DNA of 64,000 nucleotides, from assembly GCF_900095305.1 (NCBI RefSeq), contig NZ_FMDO01000005.1, positions 1 to 64,000 of the forward strand, written 5' to 3'. Under the pieces are notes generated by a model, which was not told the DNA's origin, did not search any database, and was given only the letters and a program-made list of their open reading frames with translations. Shown one piece after another: positions 2,217 through 19,971 of this stretch. Each line of letters starts with the position of its first letter. The stretch's first letter is position 1. This DNA comes from Proteiniborus sp. DW1 (GTDB taxonomy: Bacteria > Bacillota > Clostridia > Tissierellales > Proteiniboraceae). The position numbers were made by a program, and so were the translations under genes.

Positions 2217-3413
2217 GTGAAAAAATTTTTATCACTTACTGTAGCTATTGTTATGCTTTTTTCAATGAGTATTGTTACATATGCAGAGGGCAGTGTTAGT
2301 AATGAAATAGATCCAAATAAAGAGATACAACTAAGCCTTAATGACGCTATAGACTATGCGTTAAAACATAGTCGAGATGTAAAAATACAAGACTTAGAAA
2401 TGAAAGCAGCACAGCTAAAATATGAACAGAGTAGAAGTGGAGCAAGAGATATTAAAGATCAAATTGAGGAATATAACAATCTACCTGACGATATAAGAGG
2501 TGAAATTAGGGAAGAAGTCATACCTATTATAGAAAGTGAGTTAGTAGAGCTAGGAGTTATAGACAGACAAGCTAAGCTAACAAGGCAAATATCAGTATGG
2601 AATAAAGAAATAAAGGAAAATGAGATAAAATACAATGTAGAAAAAGCCTACTTTGATTTATTACAAAGTGAAATAGATATGGAAATAGCAAGAGAAGGCT
2701 TGGAGTTAGCCAATAAACAATATGAGCAAAGTAAAAAAATGTACGAGTTAGGAAGCATATCGCACCAACAGCTTTTATCAGTAGAACTTGCAGTATCTCA
2801 AGCCCAGTCAGGTCTTGATATGGCTATAATGGGATATGAACTGCAAAGGATGAGCTTTAATAATACTTTAGGACTTTCTTTAGGACAAAAGGTAAAATTA
2901 ACAGACAAGATAGAGTATAAAACACATGAAGATATAGAACTAGAGAAAGCTATAGAAGTTGCCAATGAAAATAGTGCTATGCTTAAAGCTGCTAAGGAAA
3001 GCTTCGAGCTTTCTGAGCTTACGCTTAAAGCTGTAAAAGCAAAACATGTTACTCCAAATCAATACAAGTATAGAGAACAGGAAATAGCAGTAGAGCAAGC
3101 AGCCAAAAACCTAGATACAACTAAAAATGGGGTGGAGATGGCAGTGAGATCTGCTTACCATAGCTTAATCACAGCAGAGAAACAGATAAAAACTTATGAA
3201 AAGGCAGTAGAAAATGCTCAAAAAGCATATGAACTAACTGAATTAAGCTATAGCCTAGGTCAAAACACTTCAAACGATGTGACCAAGGCTAGAATAGACT
3301 TAATGGATGCTAAGAAAAGCCTTACTAAACAAATACATGCATACAATCTTGCCTTATTAGATTTTAAATATGCTATAGGTTTAGGAAAAAATACAATAGG
3401 CGGTGGGTTTTAG
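2217..3413 (+). CDS. TolC/OEP-family coiled-coil protein with signal peptide
   Basis: 398-residue exported protein. The signal peptide is residues 1-23 (ending TYA). The mature part is almost all helix with two OEP-like halves: LSLNDAIDYALKHSRDVKIQ and a long heptad stretch to about residue 215, then KAIEVANENSAMLKAAKESF to the end. TolC-family proteins are outer-membrane export channels in diderms; monoderm Firmicutes carry relatives of unclear role. The GTG start follows GGGAGGAG at good spacing. The next gene begins 12 bp downstream, so it heads an envelope operon. No lipobox or SLH anchor is seen. Its role here is unknown. Confidence 0.75.
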   Translation: MKKFLSLTVAIVMLFSMSIVTYAEGSVSNEIDPNKEIQLSLNDAIDYALKHSRDVKIQDLEMKAAQLKYEQSRSGARDIKDQIEEYNNLPDDIRGEIREEVIPIIESELVELGVIDRQAKLTRQISVWNKEIKENEIKYNVEKAYFDLLQSEIDMEIAREGLELANKQYEQSKKMYELGSISHQQLLSVELAVSQAQSGLDMAIMGYELQRMSFNNTLGLSLGQKVKLTDKIEYKTHEDIELEKAIEVANENSAMLKAAKESFELSELTLKAVKAKHVTPNQYKYREQEIAVEQAAKNLDTTKNGVEMAVRSAYHSLITAEKQIKTYEKAVENAQKAYELTELSYSLGQNTSNDVTKARIDLMDAKKSLTKQIHAYNLALLDFKYAIGLGKNTIGGGF

Positions 3414-3433
3414 CATTTTAAGGAGTGATTCCC

Positions 3434-4516
3434 ATTAAATCAAGTGAAAATCCTAGGATTTTGCACATAGATGTTCTTAGAATTTTATCGATATATGCAG
3501 TTGTGATACTGCATATATCAGCTCCGTTTGCAGCAAATATGAATACTTATGGTGCCAGATGGTGGTGGATAGGCAACCTGGGTGACTCCGCCACCAGATG
3601 GTGTGTACCTGTACTTATTCTAATTAGCGGTAGGCTTATGCTTTGTAGTGACAGGGAAGAAAGTATACTCCTATTTCTGAGGAAAAGACTTTCAAAAGTA
3701 ATATTTCCTTTGATTTTTTGGAGTTTTCTATATTTAATTAATATGCTAAGAAAAAGCGAATTAGGTATCCAGTGGGATATGTCATTACTTAAGTTGTTTC
3801 TAACAAATCTTTACACAGGCAATGTACATATTCATCTATGGTATCTTTATATGCTAATTGGACTATATTTGATTACACCTATTATTAAGCCATATGTAAA
3901 TAATGTAAAAAAGGATAATTTTATTTACTTTATAGTCATATGGTTTATATCTAATGGGGTAATTGTATTTTTAGAAAAGTTTACAGTTTATAATATAGGC
4001 ATTAATTTAAGCTTTTTCCATTGGAGCCTAGGCTATTATATATTAGGCTTCTTGCTAGAAAGGTACAATCCTTCAGAAAAGCAAAGGAAAATAGCATATA
4101 TCTTTGGTTTCTTAGGATTTGTAGTAACTGCCTATGGAACGTACTTATTGACTGTGAATAATGTAGGACAGCTTGTGGAGCACTTATATTCATATTTAGC
4201 TCCTAATGTTATAGTCATGTCTATATCAGTATACATATTATTTAAGAATATCCATTGGGATAGAGTCATAGATAATATTCCTATACTAAATACCATAATA
4301 TCAAGCTTCAATAAGACCAGCTTTGGCATATATCTGGTACATTTGCTTGTATTAGATATTATCTATTCTGGCGAATTAGGTATTAGCATAAAAGCTTCAT
4401 CATTTAACCCCATAATAGGAATTCCATTAGTAAGTATTATTACATTCCTTGTATCTCACCTAGTAGTTCTAATCTTGCAAAAGATACCAATACTAAATAA
4501 AGCTGTTCCTAAATAA
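3434..4516 (+). CDS. Integral-membrane acyltransferase (acyltransferase-3 family)
   Basis: About 360-residue membrane protein with roughly ten hydrophobic segments. It opens with ILHIDVLRILSIYAVVILHI, the family's R-x-x-H-like start region, followed by the membrane bundle typical of OafA/WecH-like O-acyltransferases that modify surface glycans. The start is odd. AGGAG (3421-3425) lies 8 nt before an ATT codon at 3434; an in-frame GTG at 3425 overlaps the Shine-Dalgarno itself, and TTG at 3461 has a weak site. ATT is therefore chosen, with the GTG as the alternative. The acceptor may be a teichoic acid or cell-wall glycan, judging only from the neighbours. Confidence 0.75.
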   Translation: MKSSENPRILHIDVLRILSIYAVVILHISAPFAANMNTYGARWWWIGNLGDSATRWCVPVLILISGRLMLCSDREESILLFLRKRLSKVIFPLIFWSFLYLINMLRKSELGIQWDMSLLKLFLTNLYTGNVHIHLWYLYMLIGLYLITPIIKPYVNNVKKDNFIYFIVIWFISNGVIVFLEKFTVYNIGINLSFFHWSLGYYILGFLLERYNPSEKQRKIAYIFGFLGFVVTAYGTYLLTVNNVGQLVEHLYSYLAPNVIVMSISVYILFKNIHWDRVIDNIPILNTIISSFNKTSFGIYLVHLLVLDIIYSGELGISIKASSFNPIIGIPLVSIITFLVSHLVVLILQKIPILNKAVPK

Positions 4517-4517
4517 A

Positions 4518-6002
4518 ATGAGATATAATAATAGAAAACAAATAATATATGGAGTTGATTTTACGAATATGAACAGAAAAGTTTTTGGTTTAAAGAAGGG
4601 ACAGATTCTAGTAGTCATAGTATGTTTTTTTATGATTACTATGCTTTCAGATAGCGAAGCAATCTCATATGGTGTAGATTTTTATAGAGCTTACAATGAA
4701 AATGATATAAAGACTGATGCAAATATAGTAGACACCAAAGAAATTATAAACAAGATTGAATTAGAGCAAGTAGAGCTTGTACCTGAGGTATTAGTTTCTC
4801 ATGCTGGAGGAAGAGTAAAAGGTAAATCTTATACTAACTCAAAGGAATCTATAGATAAAAGTTATGAAAATGGGTACAGGTTTATTGAACTTGATTTTCA
4901 GTGGACTGCTGATGGAAATTTAGCTCTTATCCATGATTGGGATGGATATGTGAATACTGCCTTTGGTGTAGAATCTAAAATGTACAGCACTGAAGAGTTT
5001 AAAAGCTTTAATATGATAGAAGGACTTACTCAAATGATCTTGGATGATTTAGCAGAATGGCTTCATGTACACAATGACGTATATATAGTTACTGATATTA
5101 AGTATGACAATGTTAAAGCGTTAGGATATATAAAAGATAGGTATCCTGACCTAGTAGCTCAGTTTATTCCACAAATATATAGGATTGAACAGTTTGTACC
5201 TGTAAAAGAATTGGGATATAAAAATATTATATTAACTCTGTATGCATCTAACTATTCCGATGACGAGCTAATAGACTTTGTTAAAGCACATAGGGTTTTT
5301 GCCATTACTATGCCAATAGCTAGAGCAAAGACAGAACTGCCAAGAAAGCTAAAGGAAGAAAGTGTTTTCGTATATGCACACACAATCAACAGCCAAGAGC
5401 TAAGACAGGAACTAGAGCTTTGTGGAGTAGATGGGTTCTATACTGATGATATACTTCCATTAAGCTGGGGAATAGACCAAGTTGAGAAAGCGAGGGAATA
5501 TAACTTAGTTACAGATAGTATTATTGCAAACCTTCATCAGTATCTAACTAGAGAAGAGGTTTGTGAGTTATTAGTAAACTTATATGAAGCAATGTCAGAT
5601 AATAAAGCAGAGTTACCTGATTTTAATATCTTTACAGATACAGATAATCCAGAAGTGCTAAAGGCAAATGCATTAGGTTTAGTAAATGGAGTTAATGAAA
5701 CACAGTTTTTACCAAAAGCTAATATTACTAGGGAAGAAATGGCTACTATGATATATAGGACATTAGAGAAATTAGACGAATCTTTAATAGAAGATAGGTC
5801 TCATATTTACTTTGCTGATGTTATTGAGATTTCTAATTGGGCATTAGAGCCTATTAGTTTTTTAAGTGACCACAATATATTAATTGGTGTAGGCAGCAAT
5901 AGAGTAGCTCCTAAGGACAATGTTACAAGGGAGCAAGGGATTATATTAGTTAAAAGAGTCTATGAAAAATTTAAACTAGATTTAGATAATCATAATTTAT
6001 AG
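4518..6002 (+). CDS. Membrane-anchored GDPD-family phosphodiesterase with SLH motifs
   Basis: 494-residue surface protein. A hydrophobic segment at about 30-45 is a signal anchor. Residues about 90-325 are a glycerophosphodiester phosphodiesterase domain with the catalytic His in SHAGG (H95), the acidic pair in FIELDFQWT and the His-Asp of ALIHDW. Two SLH-like motifs follow (about 376-420 and 435-487, with NITREEMATMIYR and NVTREQGIILVKR), which would tether it to the cell-wall polymer. The ATG at 4518 follows the previous stop by 1 nt and has no clear Shine-Dalgarno, so translation may be coupled. The domain is a close paralogue of the C-terminus of the LTA synthase at 8193. Likely substrate: glycerophosphodiesters, possibly lipoteichoic acid. 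Confidence 0.8.
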   Translation: MRYNNRKQIIYGVDFTNMNRKVFGLKKGQILVVIVCFFMITMLSDSEAISYGVDFYRAYNENDIKTDANIVDTKEIINKIELEQVELVPEVLVSHAGGRVKGKSYTNSKESIDKSYENGYRFIELDFQWTADGNLALIHDWDGYVNTAFGVESKMYSTEEFKSFNMIEGLTQMILDDLAEWLHVHNDVYIVTDIKYDNVKALGYIKDRYPDLVAQFIPQIYRIEQFVPVKELGYKNIILTLYASNYSDDELIDFVKAHRVFAITMPIARAKTELPRKLKEESVFVYAHTINSQELRQELELCGVDGFYTDDILPLSWGIDQVEKAREYNLVTDSIIANLHQYLTREEVCELLVNLYEAMSDNKAELPDFNIFTDTDNPEVLKANALGLVNGVNETQFLPKANITREEMATMIYRTLEKLDESLIEDRSHIYFADVIEISNWALEPISFLSDHNILIGVGSNRVAPKDNVTREQGIILVKRVYEKFKLDLDNHNL

Positions 6003-8074: not shown

Positions 8075-8114
8075 AAACCTAAGGTGAGATAAAATCTCAA
8101 GCCTTGGGTTTTTT
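8075..8114 (+). terminator. Rho-independent terminator after the SLH repeat protein
   Basis: AAACCTAAGG (8075-8084) pairs with CCTTGGGTTT (8102-8111, one G-U), with an inner TGAGAT/ATCTCA stem, followed by a T run. Confidence 0.85.
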
Positions 8115-8152: not shown

Positions 8153-8192
8153 TTCTATGTGATACAAATTATACTTTGTGAGGATGGTACTA

Positions 8193-10769
8193 ATGAATAC
8201 ACTTATTAAAATACAGAGAAAATATCTAATTGAGCTTATTGCACTTCTAATCCTTTTCTTTATAAAAGCACTTATTTTTAGTTCTTTTATTGGAAGTGGA
8301 AAGTTAAGTGTTATTTTAAGCCTAATAAGTTTAATATATATTATTTTTGCTATTGCATTAACTAATATATTAAAAGGAAAAAAGAAAGACATAGTTTTCG
8401 TAGCTATATATACATTAGTTTCTTTAATAATGTTTGCAGATGTGGCATATTTTAGGTATTTTAATCAGCTTACATCTGTAGTTGTACTAAAGCAGTTCAG
8501 TCAACTGGGAACAGTTGGTGAAAGCATATTATATGTGGTAAAGCCAACAGATATTTTGATAGTAGCTGACATAATACCCATTATTATTTATTATATCTTC
8601 ACTAGAAAAACTAAATCAACATATAGTACTTTTTTAGGTAGAAAACAATCTTTTAGTATTGTACTAGGTATATTAGCTATATTAATTTTATCAATAGTTT
8701 CTGTAAATAACTTTAGTGAAAATATCAATTTATCTAGACAAGAGTTTTTTACTTATCATATAAGTGATGTATACAACACTATCTTTTCTAAGGAAGAGGT
8801 CAGGGATACAGACCAGTTGCTAAAAGAATCAATAGAAAAAACAATTAATAAAGAGAAAAACTTTTATGGGGTAGCCAGAGGTAAAAATATAATTACTATT
8901 CAAGTGGAAGGTTTGCAGAACTTTGTGATAAATAGGGAATACAGCGGGCAGGAATTAACGCCTAATCTAAACAATCTAATAAAAGAAAATAGTATATATT
9001 TTGATAAGTATTATCAGCAACTAGGCAGGGGCAATACCTCTGATGCAGAGTTTGTTACACATAATTCATTGTATCCTGCCATGGATGGTCAAACCTATCT
9101 AAAATATTACAATAACACTTTTTATGGACTACCTTGGATACTAAAGGATAATGGATATAGCACAGCTGCCTTTCATGGATATAAAGCTTCTTTTTGGAAT
9201 AGGGATAAGGCTTATCCATATCAGGGATTTGACAGATACTATAATGGTGATGGAGATTATACTATTAAAGAGCCTATTATAGGTTTAGGCATAAATGACA
9301 GTGAGTTTTTCTCCCAGTCTACTGACTATATAAAAGCTATGAAAGAGCCTTACTATGCATTTCTAGTTACCCTATCTAGTCACCATCCATTTGAAATGCC
9401 TGATATATATAAGAAAATCAAATTAATGGAAGAGCATGAAGGGACTTTGTTTGGAAATTATATTCAATCCATTAATTATGCAGATGCTGCTTTAGGTGAG
9501 TTTATTGAGAGGCTTAAGCAAGAAGGACTTTATGAAAACACAATAATTAACATATACGGAGACCATTTTGGATTATCTTCAATAGATGAAGAAAATAAAA
9601 GAATTATGACTGAATACCTAGGGTTTGAATATGATTTCGATGAAATGATGAAAGTGCCATTAATTATTCATATGCCCGGGTCAGATATAAACCAGAGAAT
9701 AAGTATTACAGGTGGTCAAATAGATTTTCTGCCTACTGTATTAAACTTACTAGGAGTTGAAAATACAAAGGGTATTATGCTAGGACAAGATTTAGTAAAT
9801 GCTAAGGAAGGCTTTGTGGCTCAACAGACGTACATGTTAAAGGGCTCCTATATTAAAGAAAATATGGTATTTTCCATGTCTAGAGATGGGATATTCAAAA
9901 ATAGTAGGGCTTGGAATATAAATACTAGAGAAGCCATAGACTTAAGTAAATGTAGAGAGGACTATGAGAGAGCTATTGAAATGATAAATGAGTCAAATTA
10001 TATCTTAAAAAATGACTTGCTAAGTGAATATATTAAAGATAGAAAAGAATCATCTAATGGAACCGATAATGCAAATAAGAATCTTACACCAGAAAAATTG
10101 ATTTCTCATGCAGGTGGGCAAATAAACGGCTTGTACTATACTAATTCAAGGGAGGCTATTGATAAAAGCTATGAGAATGGATATAAGTTCATTGAACTAG
10201 ATTTTCAATGGACTTCTGATGAAAACCTAGTTCTCATTCACGACTGGGAAGAGAGAGTTGAAGAACTTTTCTCTGTAGAGCCTAAAATGTATACTACTGA
10301 GGAATTTAAGAATCTTAATATGATAAATGGCCTTACTCAGATGACCATAGAGGATTTAGCAGAGTGGCTTTATGAGCATAAGGATGTATATATAGTAACT
10401 GATATAAAAAGCGAAAATCAAAAGGCTTTAAAACTTATTAAGGAAAAGTATCCAGATTTAATAAACCAGTTCATACCACAGATATATAAATTAGACGAAT
10501 TTATTCCTGTACAAGGTTTAGGCTATTCAAATATTATACTGACCCTATATGCATCAACATATCCAGATGAAGAGCTGATAGATTTTGTAAGGAGACATGA
10601 GATCTTTGCTATTACTATGCCGATAGAAAGGGCAAGAACAGTACTTCCAGAAAAACTAAAGAAAGAGAATATTTTTGTGTATACTCATACCATTAATGAC
10701 TCTGAACTAAGAAAAGAACTAGAAGCAAAAGGAATAGATGGATTTTATACTGATGAAATATTGCCATAG
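8193..10769 (+). CDS. Lipoteichoic acid synthase (LtaS type) fused to a GDPD domain
   Basis: 858-residue membrane enzyme. Five hydrophobic segments occupy about 11-175, including the LtaS-like FADVAYFRYFNQL loop. The extracellular sulfatase-fold domain has the metal-binding Glu (IQVEGLQNF, E239), the nucleophile Thr in GRGNTSDAEF (T282), FHGYKASFWNRD, SSHHPFEMP and the Asp-His of IYGDHFG. LtaS enzymes transfer glycerophosphate from phosphatidylglycerol to the growing lipoteichoic acid chain. Uniquely here, about 230 C-terminal residues are a GDPD-type phosphodiesterase (ISHAGG, FIELDFQWT, VLIHDW), paralogous to the one at 4518. ATG 8193 is chosen over GTG 8178 because AGGA lies 8 nt upstream. 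A polymerase and a possible polymer hydrolase share one chain. Confidence 0.88.
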   Translation: MNTLIKIQRKYLIELIALLILFFIKALIFSSFIGSGKLSVILSLISLIYIIFAIALTNILKGKKKDIVFVAIYTLVSLIMFADVAYFRYFNQLTSVVVLKQFSQLGTVGESILYVVKPTDILIVADIIPIIIYYIFTRKTKSTYSTFLGRKQSFSIVLGILAILILSIVSVNNFSENINLSRQEFFTYHISDVYNTIFSKEEVRDTDQLLKESIEKTINKEKNFYGVARGKNIITIQVEGLQNFVINREYSGQELTPNLNNLIKENSIYFDKYYQQLGRGNTSDAEFVTHNSLYPAMDGQTYLKYYNNTFYGLPWILKDNGYSTAAFHGYKASFWNRDKAYPYQGFDRYYNGDGDYTIKEPIIGLGINDSEFFSQSTDYIKAMKEPYYAFLVTLSSHHPFEMPDIYKKIKLMEEHEGTLFGNYIQSINYADAALGEFIERLKQEGLYENTIINIYGDHFGLSSIDEENKRIMTEYLGFEYDFDEMMKVPLIIHMPGSDINQRISITGGQIDFLPTVLNLLGVENTKGIMLGQDLVNAKEGFVAQQTYMLKGSYIKENMVFSMSRDGIFKNSRAWNINTREAIDLSKCREDYERAIEMINESNYILKNDLLSEYIKDRKESSNGTDNANKNLTPEKLISHAGGQINGLYYTNSREAIDKSYENGYKFIELDFQWTSDENLVLIHDWEERVEELFSVEPKMYTTEEFKNLNMINGLTQMTIEDLAEWLYEHKDVYIVTDIKSENQKALKLIKEKYPDLINQFIPQIYKLDEFIPVQGLGYSNIILTLYASTYPDEELIDFVRRHEIFAITMPIERARTVLPEKLKKENIFVYTHTINDSELRKELEAKGIDGFYTDEILP

Positions 10770-18765: not shown

Positions 18766-19155
18766 ATGAAGGCAATGATAAGAGTTAGAATGAGTATGCA
18801 TGATGCTCACTATGGGGGAAATCTAGTTGATGGGGCAAAGATGCTTCAACTATTTGGAGATGTGGCAACTGAATTATTAATAAGACATGATGGAGATGAA
18901 GGGCTTTTTGTAGCATATGAAAGCGTTGAATTTAAAGCACCTGTTTATGCAGGAGATTTTATTGAAGCTGTAGGTGAAATAACTCAGGTTGGTAATTCTT
19001 CTAGAAAGATGGTATTCGAAGCTAGAAAGGTCATAGCTCCAAGACCAGATATTAGTGATTCTGCTTGCGATGTTCTAGAGGAGCCTATAGTAGTATGTAA
19101 AGCAGTGGGTACTTGTGTAGTACCTAAAGATAAGCAAAGAAAAAAGGGGGAATAG
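18766..19155 (+). CDS. kal: 3-aminobutyryl-CoA ammonia-lyase
   Basis: 129-residue hot-dog-fold protein. In lysine fermentation, Kal removes ammonia from L-3-aminobutyryl-CoA to give crotonyl-CoA. The N-terminus ([20 protein letters not shown]), [20 protein letters not shown] and the C-terminal [14 protein letters not shown] are as I know them from the Kal group, and the length fits. The kce gene starts 3 nt after its stop, which supports the assignment. The remaining lysine pathway genes (kamA, kamDE, kdd) are not in this window. A generic hot-dog thioesterase is the alternative. Confidence 0.85.
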
Positions 19156-19158
19156 TAA

Positions 19159-19971
19159 ATGGATAAGTTAATCATTACAGCAGCACTAACAGGGGCAGAG
19201 GTAACTAGAAAAGAACAGCCTAATTTACCATTGACTCCAGATGAAATAGCAGAGGCAGCATACGAAGCATATAAGGCAGGGGCAGCTATGGTTCATGTCC
19301 ATGCAAGAGATAGTGAAGGAAATCCTACACAGGATTATGAAGTATATAAAGAAATCAAAGAAAAAATCGAAGCTAAATGCCCAGTGATATTCCAACCTTC
19401 AACTGGTGGAGCAGTATGGCATTCGCCAGAGGAAAGACTTCAACCTGTTGAGCTAAAGCCAGAAATGGCTACCCTAAGCTGCGGAACCTGCAACTTTGGC
19501 TCTGATGTATTTATGAACAGTGAAGAATACATGGAGAAGTTTGCAAAAAGAATGAAGGAACTTGGAGTAAAACCTGAGATTGAAGTCTTTGAAAGAGGTA
19601 TGATAAACAATGCTTTAAAGCTTGTTAAAAAGGGACTAGTAGATACGCCACTACATTTTGACTTTGTAATGGGTGTTCCAGGAGCTATTACTGCAGAGCT
19701 TAGAGATTTACTGTACTTAGTAGAAAGTATTCCAGCAGGTTCTACTTGGACTGTTGCAGGGATAGGTAGATTTGAGCTTCCATTAGCAGTAGCTGCTATA
19801 ACTCTTGGAGGCCATGTGAGAGTTGGATTTGAGGATAATGTATATTATAGCAAAGGAGTTCTAGCAAAGTCTAATGCTGAACTTGTGGAAAGAATAGTTA
19901 GAATAGCTAAGGAGCTAGGTAGGGAAGTAGCCACTCCAGATGAAGCGAGAGAGATATTAGGACTTAAATAA
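19159..19971 (+). CDS. kce: 3-keto-5-aminohexanoate cleavage enzyme
   Basis: 270-residue BKACE-family enzyme. Kce condenses 3-keto-5-aminohexanoate with acetyl-CoA to give 3-aminobutyryl-CoA and acetoacetate, the step just before Kal. Visible family marks are AAMVHVHARDSEG (zinc-binding His-x-His and Arg), FQPSTGG, FERGM and VGFEDNVYYSKG near the C-terminus. Length is typical. It follows kal directly with GGGGGA as its Shine-Dalgarno and ends at a strong terminator, so the two form a small operon. The CoA-transferase and thiolase at 54-57 kb could use its acetoacetate. Confidence 0.92.
   Translation: MDKLIITAALTGAEVTRKEQPNLPLTPDEIAEAAYEAYKAGAAMVHVHARDSEGNPTQDYEVYKEIKEKIEAKCPVIFQPSTGGAVWHSPEERLQPVELKPEMATLSCGTCNFGSDVFMNSEEYMEKFAKRMKELGVKPEIEVFERGMINNALKLVKKGLVDTPLHFDFVMGVPGAITAELRDLLYLVESIPAGSTWTVAGIGRFELPLAVAAITLGGHVRVGFEDNVYYSKGVLAKSNAELVERIVRIAKELGREVATPDEAREILGLK

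Follow-up and report, generated by a model that had tools for sequence, protein, structure and literature searches.

The window analysed here comprises 64,000 nucleotides of Proteiniborus sp. DW1 (contig NZ_FMDO01000005.1, positions 1 to 64,000) and carries a gene in which a lipoteichoic acid synthase (LtaS) is joined to a phosphodiesterase of the GDPD type (Table 1). The gene is a single unbroken frame with a ribosome-binding site 9 bases 5' of its ATG. Upstream lies a terminator-like hairpin with a T run (~8078-8114), so the gene is probably its own transcription unit. Both domains score above the curated Pfam cut-offs within the same 858-residue frame: Sulfatase (PF00884) at residues 231-522 with an E-value of 2.5e-38, and GDPD (PF03009) at residues 648-856 with an E-value of 1.8e-15 and 58 bits against a cut-off of 23.6. 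The union of the two domains, which a first-pass annotation of this DNA had proposed, is real.

The solved structures nearest to the LtaS half are LtaS and LtaP of Listeria, B. subtilis and S. aureus (4uoo, 2w8d, 2w5q; E ~1e-64), and those nearest to the second half are GDPDs. Five long helices, in line with the hydropathy, also appear in a low-confidence AlphaFold model of the full-length protein (4 rows; pLDDT 43), which is too poor to judge the placement of the domains. A model of the GDPD half (2 rows; mean pLDDT 67) is of moderate quality and serves as a basis for the fold only; its best PDB match is B. subtilis GlpQ (E 4e-9), followed by T. maritima GDPD, phage K gp155, S. aureus GDPD and others. 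The linker between the halves is poorly conserved, with 32-50% identity within the genus and a variable length.

Table 1. Positions in the window of the fusion gene, its domains and motifs, and two neighbouring genes.
Feature	Position	Strand	Basis or remark
Membrane O-acyltransferase gene, directly 5' of the stand-alone GDPD gene	3425..4516	+	pairing repeated in G002
Stand-alone exported GDPD with S-layer homology (SLH) domains	4518..6002	+	69% identical to the fused GDPD, same lineage
LtaS-GDPD fusion gene, 858 aa	8193..10769	+	single ORF (ATG 8193, stop 10769); ribosome-binding site GAGG 8180-8183
N-terminal membrane domain, ~five transmembrane helices, residues 9-178	8217..8726	+	hydropathy
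Extracellular LtaS catalytic domain (Sulfatase fold), residues 231-522	8883..9758	+	Pfam and solved-structure matches
Codon of the nucleophile Thr282, in GRGNTSDAEF	9036..9038	+	aligned with Thr-300 of S. aureus LtaS
Linker joining the LtaS and GDPD domains, residues 611-638, ~28 residues	10023..10106	+	
GDPD barrel, HAxG subfamily, residues 639-858	10107..10766	+	Pfam, residues, fold match
HAGG motif: catalytic His639, Ala640 replacing GlpQ Arg-44	10107..10118	+	
Glu668-x-Asp670, metal ligands by homology	10194..10202	+	
His683-Asp-Trp, second catalytic His	10239..10247	+	
Asp737-x-Lys739, third metal ligand and Lys	10401..10409	+	

LtaS is known for its five-helix architecture, its catalytic Thr and its metal and phosphate ligands (PMC4192460). 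The LtaS half of the fusion contains the full catalytic set (E239, T282, W335, R337, H397, D457 and H458), which matches the catalytic Thr, the metal ligands and the phosphate ligands of LtaS. Thus, the expectation that the metal ligands and the nucleophile are kept was borne out at all seven residues, with T282 lying in GRGNTSDAEF. The protein misses the NCBIfam equivalog cut-off for LtaS (353 versus 970 bits); judged by fold and motifs, we assign it to the LtaS family, outside the narrow equivalog model. With the LtaS and LtaP proteins of S. aureus, B. subtilis and L. monocytogenes (2w5q, 2w8d, 4uoo, 4uop) it has in common the five helices, the sulfatase-fold extracellular domain, the catalytic Thr and the metal and phosphate ligands. 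However, the known LtaS proteins stop after the eLtaS domain, whereas the fusion protein continues with a GDPD barrel. It is the sole strong LtaS match in the genome. A second, distant sulfatase-fold protein (L005:1327-3198; G000 contig C7, ~273271-274764; 24% identity, 33 bits on the LtaS model) is possibly another phosphoglycerol or phosphoethanolamine transferase.

The GDPD half, likewise extracellular, also contains a full catalytic set (H639, E668, D670, H683, D684, D737 and K739), including two catalytic His (H639, H683) and three acidic metal ligands (E668, D670, D737). The catalytic residues of GlpQ are His-43, Arg-44, Glu-70, Asp-72, His-85 and Glu-152 (PMC7086022); H639, E668, D670, H683 and D737 correspond to His-43, Glu-70, Asp-72, His-85 and Glu-152, and K739 is additional. 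The HR dipeptide of canonical GlpQ (His-43/Arg-44) is absent and is replaced by HA. The first-pass annotation had listed the His, Glu-Asp and His-Asp motifs as kept, and all are present, but it overlooked that the first reads HA and not HR. GlpQ and bacterial GDPDs (5t91/5t9b, 1o1z, 2oog) share with the fusion GDPD the barrel fold and the His, Glu-x-Asp, His and acidic-x-Lys elements. In contrast to GlpQ, the fusion GDPD has HAxG instead of HRG, an Asp for Glu-152, and a tether to a polymer synthase. On these residues, we class it as a GDPD-fold relative and not as a canonical GlpQ.

Ala or Gly follows the first His in all intact relatives of this kind, fused and stand-alone, and HA or HG also occurs in stand-alone proteins of family f50, elsewhere in the phylum. 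We refer to these Arg-less GDPDs with Ala or Gly after the first His as the HAxG subfamily. Its intact members, both fused and stand-alone, show little or no variation at the tabulated catalytic and pocket residues (H, E, D, H, D, K, Q, Y, T, H, T, N, D), and the residue after the second His varies (D, E or S). Since the remaining tabulated residues hardly change, if at all, the subfamily has the look of active enzymes with their own specificity and not of a decayed GlpQ. Could its reaction be the formation of phosphodiesters, with the barrel acting as a transferase that decorates or caps the chain, like AvrBs2 or agrocinopine synthase? A GDPD-derived synthetase has a precedent: AvrBs2 forms phosphodiesters from UDP-galactose and has a family-specific motif, R544/D547 (PMC12807533). 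These enzymes share GDPD-like catalytic residues with the fusion GDPD, and the AvrBs2 family model hits a short stretch of it (E 6e-4). However, this weak, motif-level match spans only 35 residues around the shared GDPD motifs, and a nucleotide-sugar donor is not expected outside the membrane. We consider a transferase very improbable and the least likely of the alternatives discussed here.

Is the fusion a common architecture? An HAxG-type domain was found in 51 of 249 genomes of the same order, and in 47 of these in an ORF of at least 600 aa; the 47 were counted by ORF length, and an LtaS-type half was present in all of the ~35 long ORFs in which it was checked. The same LtaS-GDPD junction occurs in families f1, f2, f4, f5, f7, f13, f16 and f17. 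Searches with the GDPD half returned only stand-alone forms from 398 genomes of the phylum and, from 245 genomes of the class, one fusion outside the order (G654), with a degenerate GDPD. In a search of 199 phylum genomes with the LtaS half, all LtaS frames outside the order were at most 722 aa long, too short to hold a GDPD. The fusion is characteristic of one order and almost entirely confined to it. An assembly artefact or chance as its origin is ruled out by the same junction in dozens of genomes, and a fusion unique to Proteiniborus sp. DW1 by the same architecture across the order; a wide spread in Bacillota was not seen in the samples, which gave only the one fusion beyond the order. 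The nearest named matches come from two MAGs, one of Clostridiales (60% identity; its contig breaks off ahead of the GDPD) and one of Bacillota. Our literature search found no paper describing an LtaS-GDPD fusion, in agreement with the first-pass annotation, whose author knew of no described enzyme with this domain order. The architecture is apparently an order-level variant of two known families, undescribed in the literature searched.

Across the order, we found the fusion in three states. Both halves are intact in the window genus (G000, G001, G002), in f17 (G018, G031), f13 (G028, G063) and f5 (G084), and in one f4 genome (G022), whose LtaS half has a Ser in place of the Thr. Between intact members of the window genus, f17, f13 and f5, the pairwise identities of the GDPD and LtaS catalytic halves were 82/85, 74/76, 66/73, 56/64, 52/58 and 49/57%, and in these lineages the constraint on the GDPD half comes close to that on the LtaS half. 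In f17, a calcineurin-like metallophosphoesterase gene (L046:7115-7993) overlaps the start of the LtaS-GDPD frame of G031, and G018 has a gene with a comparable start and length upstream of its fusion gene. In the second state, seen in many members of f2, f5, f7, f13 and f16, LtaS is intact and the GDPD is catalytically dead, its HAGG and His-Asp segments being deleted or replaced. Neither of two dead barrels tested was recognised by Pfam, so domain databases probably under-count the architecture.

The third state is the reverse and occurs in f4, where proteins of 613-681 aa that lack the membrane domain have a complete GDPD set and a dead LtaS, its Thr and metal ligands mostly replaced (for example, GDH by GAN, GKN or GTN). 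In two f4 genomes (G075, G095) such a protein coexists with a separate live LtaS. Live f4 LtaS proteins have C-terminal extensions of ~300-340 aa (L096:9595-10512, L097:5289-6233, L098:5390-6406), probably degenerate GDPD-like repeats. Comparison of this extension (A4) with GDPD by hhalign gave 92% over 70 columns, and 82% for the first half; with this moderate support, the extension is probably a further degenerate GDPD-like domain.

How often was catalysis lost? With the intact fusion set taken as ancestral and three long-branched f4 rows omitted, we counted at least six losses of GDPD catalysis on the best LtaS tree, and at least four after collapsing all branches with SH-aLRT below 95. The intact state was taken as ancestral because regain of a full catalytic set is implausible. 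The GDPD and LtaS trees agree in placing f13 with f5 and in separating f1, f17 and f4, although the deep branches of the GDPD tree are weak; this agreement is as expected for one ancestral fusion that was inherited vertically. The three states among relatives imply that the GDPD half was ancestrally catalytic, and the GDPD scaffold seems to be useful even without catalysis. The repeated and reciprocal loss of catalysis is the more surprising part of the finding.

These losses raise the possibility that the fused barrel is mainly a non-catalytic module, for binding the growing glycerophosphate chain or a membrane lipid or for keeping LtaS within a complex, any residual catalysis being incidental. 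The catalytic residues disappeared several times independently with the barrel kept in frame, and 177 columns of the intact profile still align with the dead barrels as a set (E 1e-42). Their dN/dS of ~0.08-0.33, a rough value as synonymous sites are near saturation, indicates that they are kept by purifying selection for something other than catalysis. Binding or scaffolding is likely the role of the dead barrels and possible for the protein encoded in the window. As the main role of the fused barrel, however, we consider it unlikely: the full catalytic set is kept over a large divergence in the window genus, f17, f13, f5 and members of f4, and pure binding leaves unexplained why the GDPD half evolves nearly as slowly as the LtaS half.

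A further alternative concerns the substrate. The GDPD half could hydrolyse, and thereby recycle, lysophosphatidylglycerol, glycerophosphoglycerol or other deacylated lipids at the membrane, with the fusion serving as an anchor only. The GDPD fold also matches the LPG phospholipase D of S. aureus (LpgD; 8ghh), a member of the GDPD family that acts in membrane lipid homeostasis (PMC10404611). In addition, a close paralogue is the separate SLH-bearing protein encoded upstream in the window, an example of the barrel in use apart from LtaS. This protein and its G002 counterpart nest inside the fused GDPDs of the genus (support 98/92), which implies that the fused barrel was copied into a wall-type protein or that both exchanged sequence; no counterpart was found among the G001 matches. 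The only other GDPD in the genome is an ordinary one. Yet it is the fusion to LtaS, and not to another anchor, that was retained across many families, and in the f4 proteins the GDPD keeps a dead LtaS domain. A role in lipid recycling alone is therefore doubtful in our estimation.

We tentatively favour, at somewhat less than even probability, a synthase whose GDPD half edits or turns over the polyglycerophosphate made by the attached LtaS. The membrane-anchored LtaS half would take glycerophosphate from phosphatidylglycerol and polymerise it outside the membrane. The tethered HAxG barrel, presumed to be metal-dependent with two catalytic His, would hydrolyse a glycerophosphodiester where synthesis takes place, either in that polymer or in a by-product, and chains would thereby be trimmed, released or recycled during synthesis. 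Lipoteichoic acid (LTA) synthesis by the LtaS half is predicted from homology, and we infer hydrolysis by the GDPD half with the polymer as its substrate.

The first-pass annotation had suggested that one protein could both polymerise and cut; in its favour, both catalytic sets are kept in the genus and the halves are conserved nearly equally. Its simplest form, in which the GDPD half just cuts the glycerophosphodiesters of LTA, is not supported: canonical GlpQ does not attack intact LTA, the Arg is missing and many fused relatives are dead. GlpQ is specific for sn-glycerol-3-phosphate and cleaves WTA, but does not attack intact LTA, which consists of sn-glycerol-1-phosphate (PMC7086022). An LTA-active GDPD must therefore differ in its pocket or specificity, and we conjecture that the missing Arg is a natural place for such a difference. 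GlpQ-type catalysis also needs a free C2 hydroxyl (PMC7086022). We searched the genome for DltB and found none, so the chains may have free C2 hydroxyls, unblocked by D-alanyl esters. The live LtaS beside an LtaS-dead, GDPD-intact protein in two f4 genomes is what one would expect of two activities in a single pathway. On the other hand, the GDPD is dead in many relatives, so cutting cannot be the sole role across the family. The interpretation given in the first-pass annotation is plausible but incomplete. The idea of editing resembles that of the teichoic acid hydrolase WhyD of Streptococcus pneumoniae, which also acts in the envelope and tailors a polymer of the cell surface (PMC9208761); unlike the fusion, WhyD is a separate protein.

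The three states could be combined if an ancestral bifunctional polymerase and editor gave rise to duplicated copies that kept synthesis only or hydrolysis only, the dead partner becoming a chain-binding or complex-forming module and complementary pairs coming to lie in one genome. We regard this history as possible, at clearly less than even chances. To our knowledge, the control of LTA chain length and turnover is not settled, and an enzyme that combines a synthase with a phosphodiesterase would be an immediate candidate for the editing of LTA. The natural versions with one half dead, together with those in which both are live, represent ready-made separation-of-function variants.

Other genes in the window are shared within the genus. 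A protein of the TolC/outer-membrane efflux family (2217-3413) is conserved in G001 and G002; the genome that carries it also encodes S-layer homology proteins and LtaS, as in a Gram-positive-type envelope. A gene pair at 18766-19971, which we take to resemble lysine-fermentation enzymes, is ~90-96% identical to its G001 and G002 versions.
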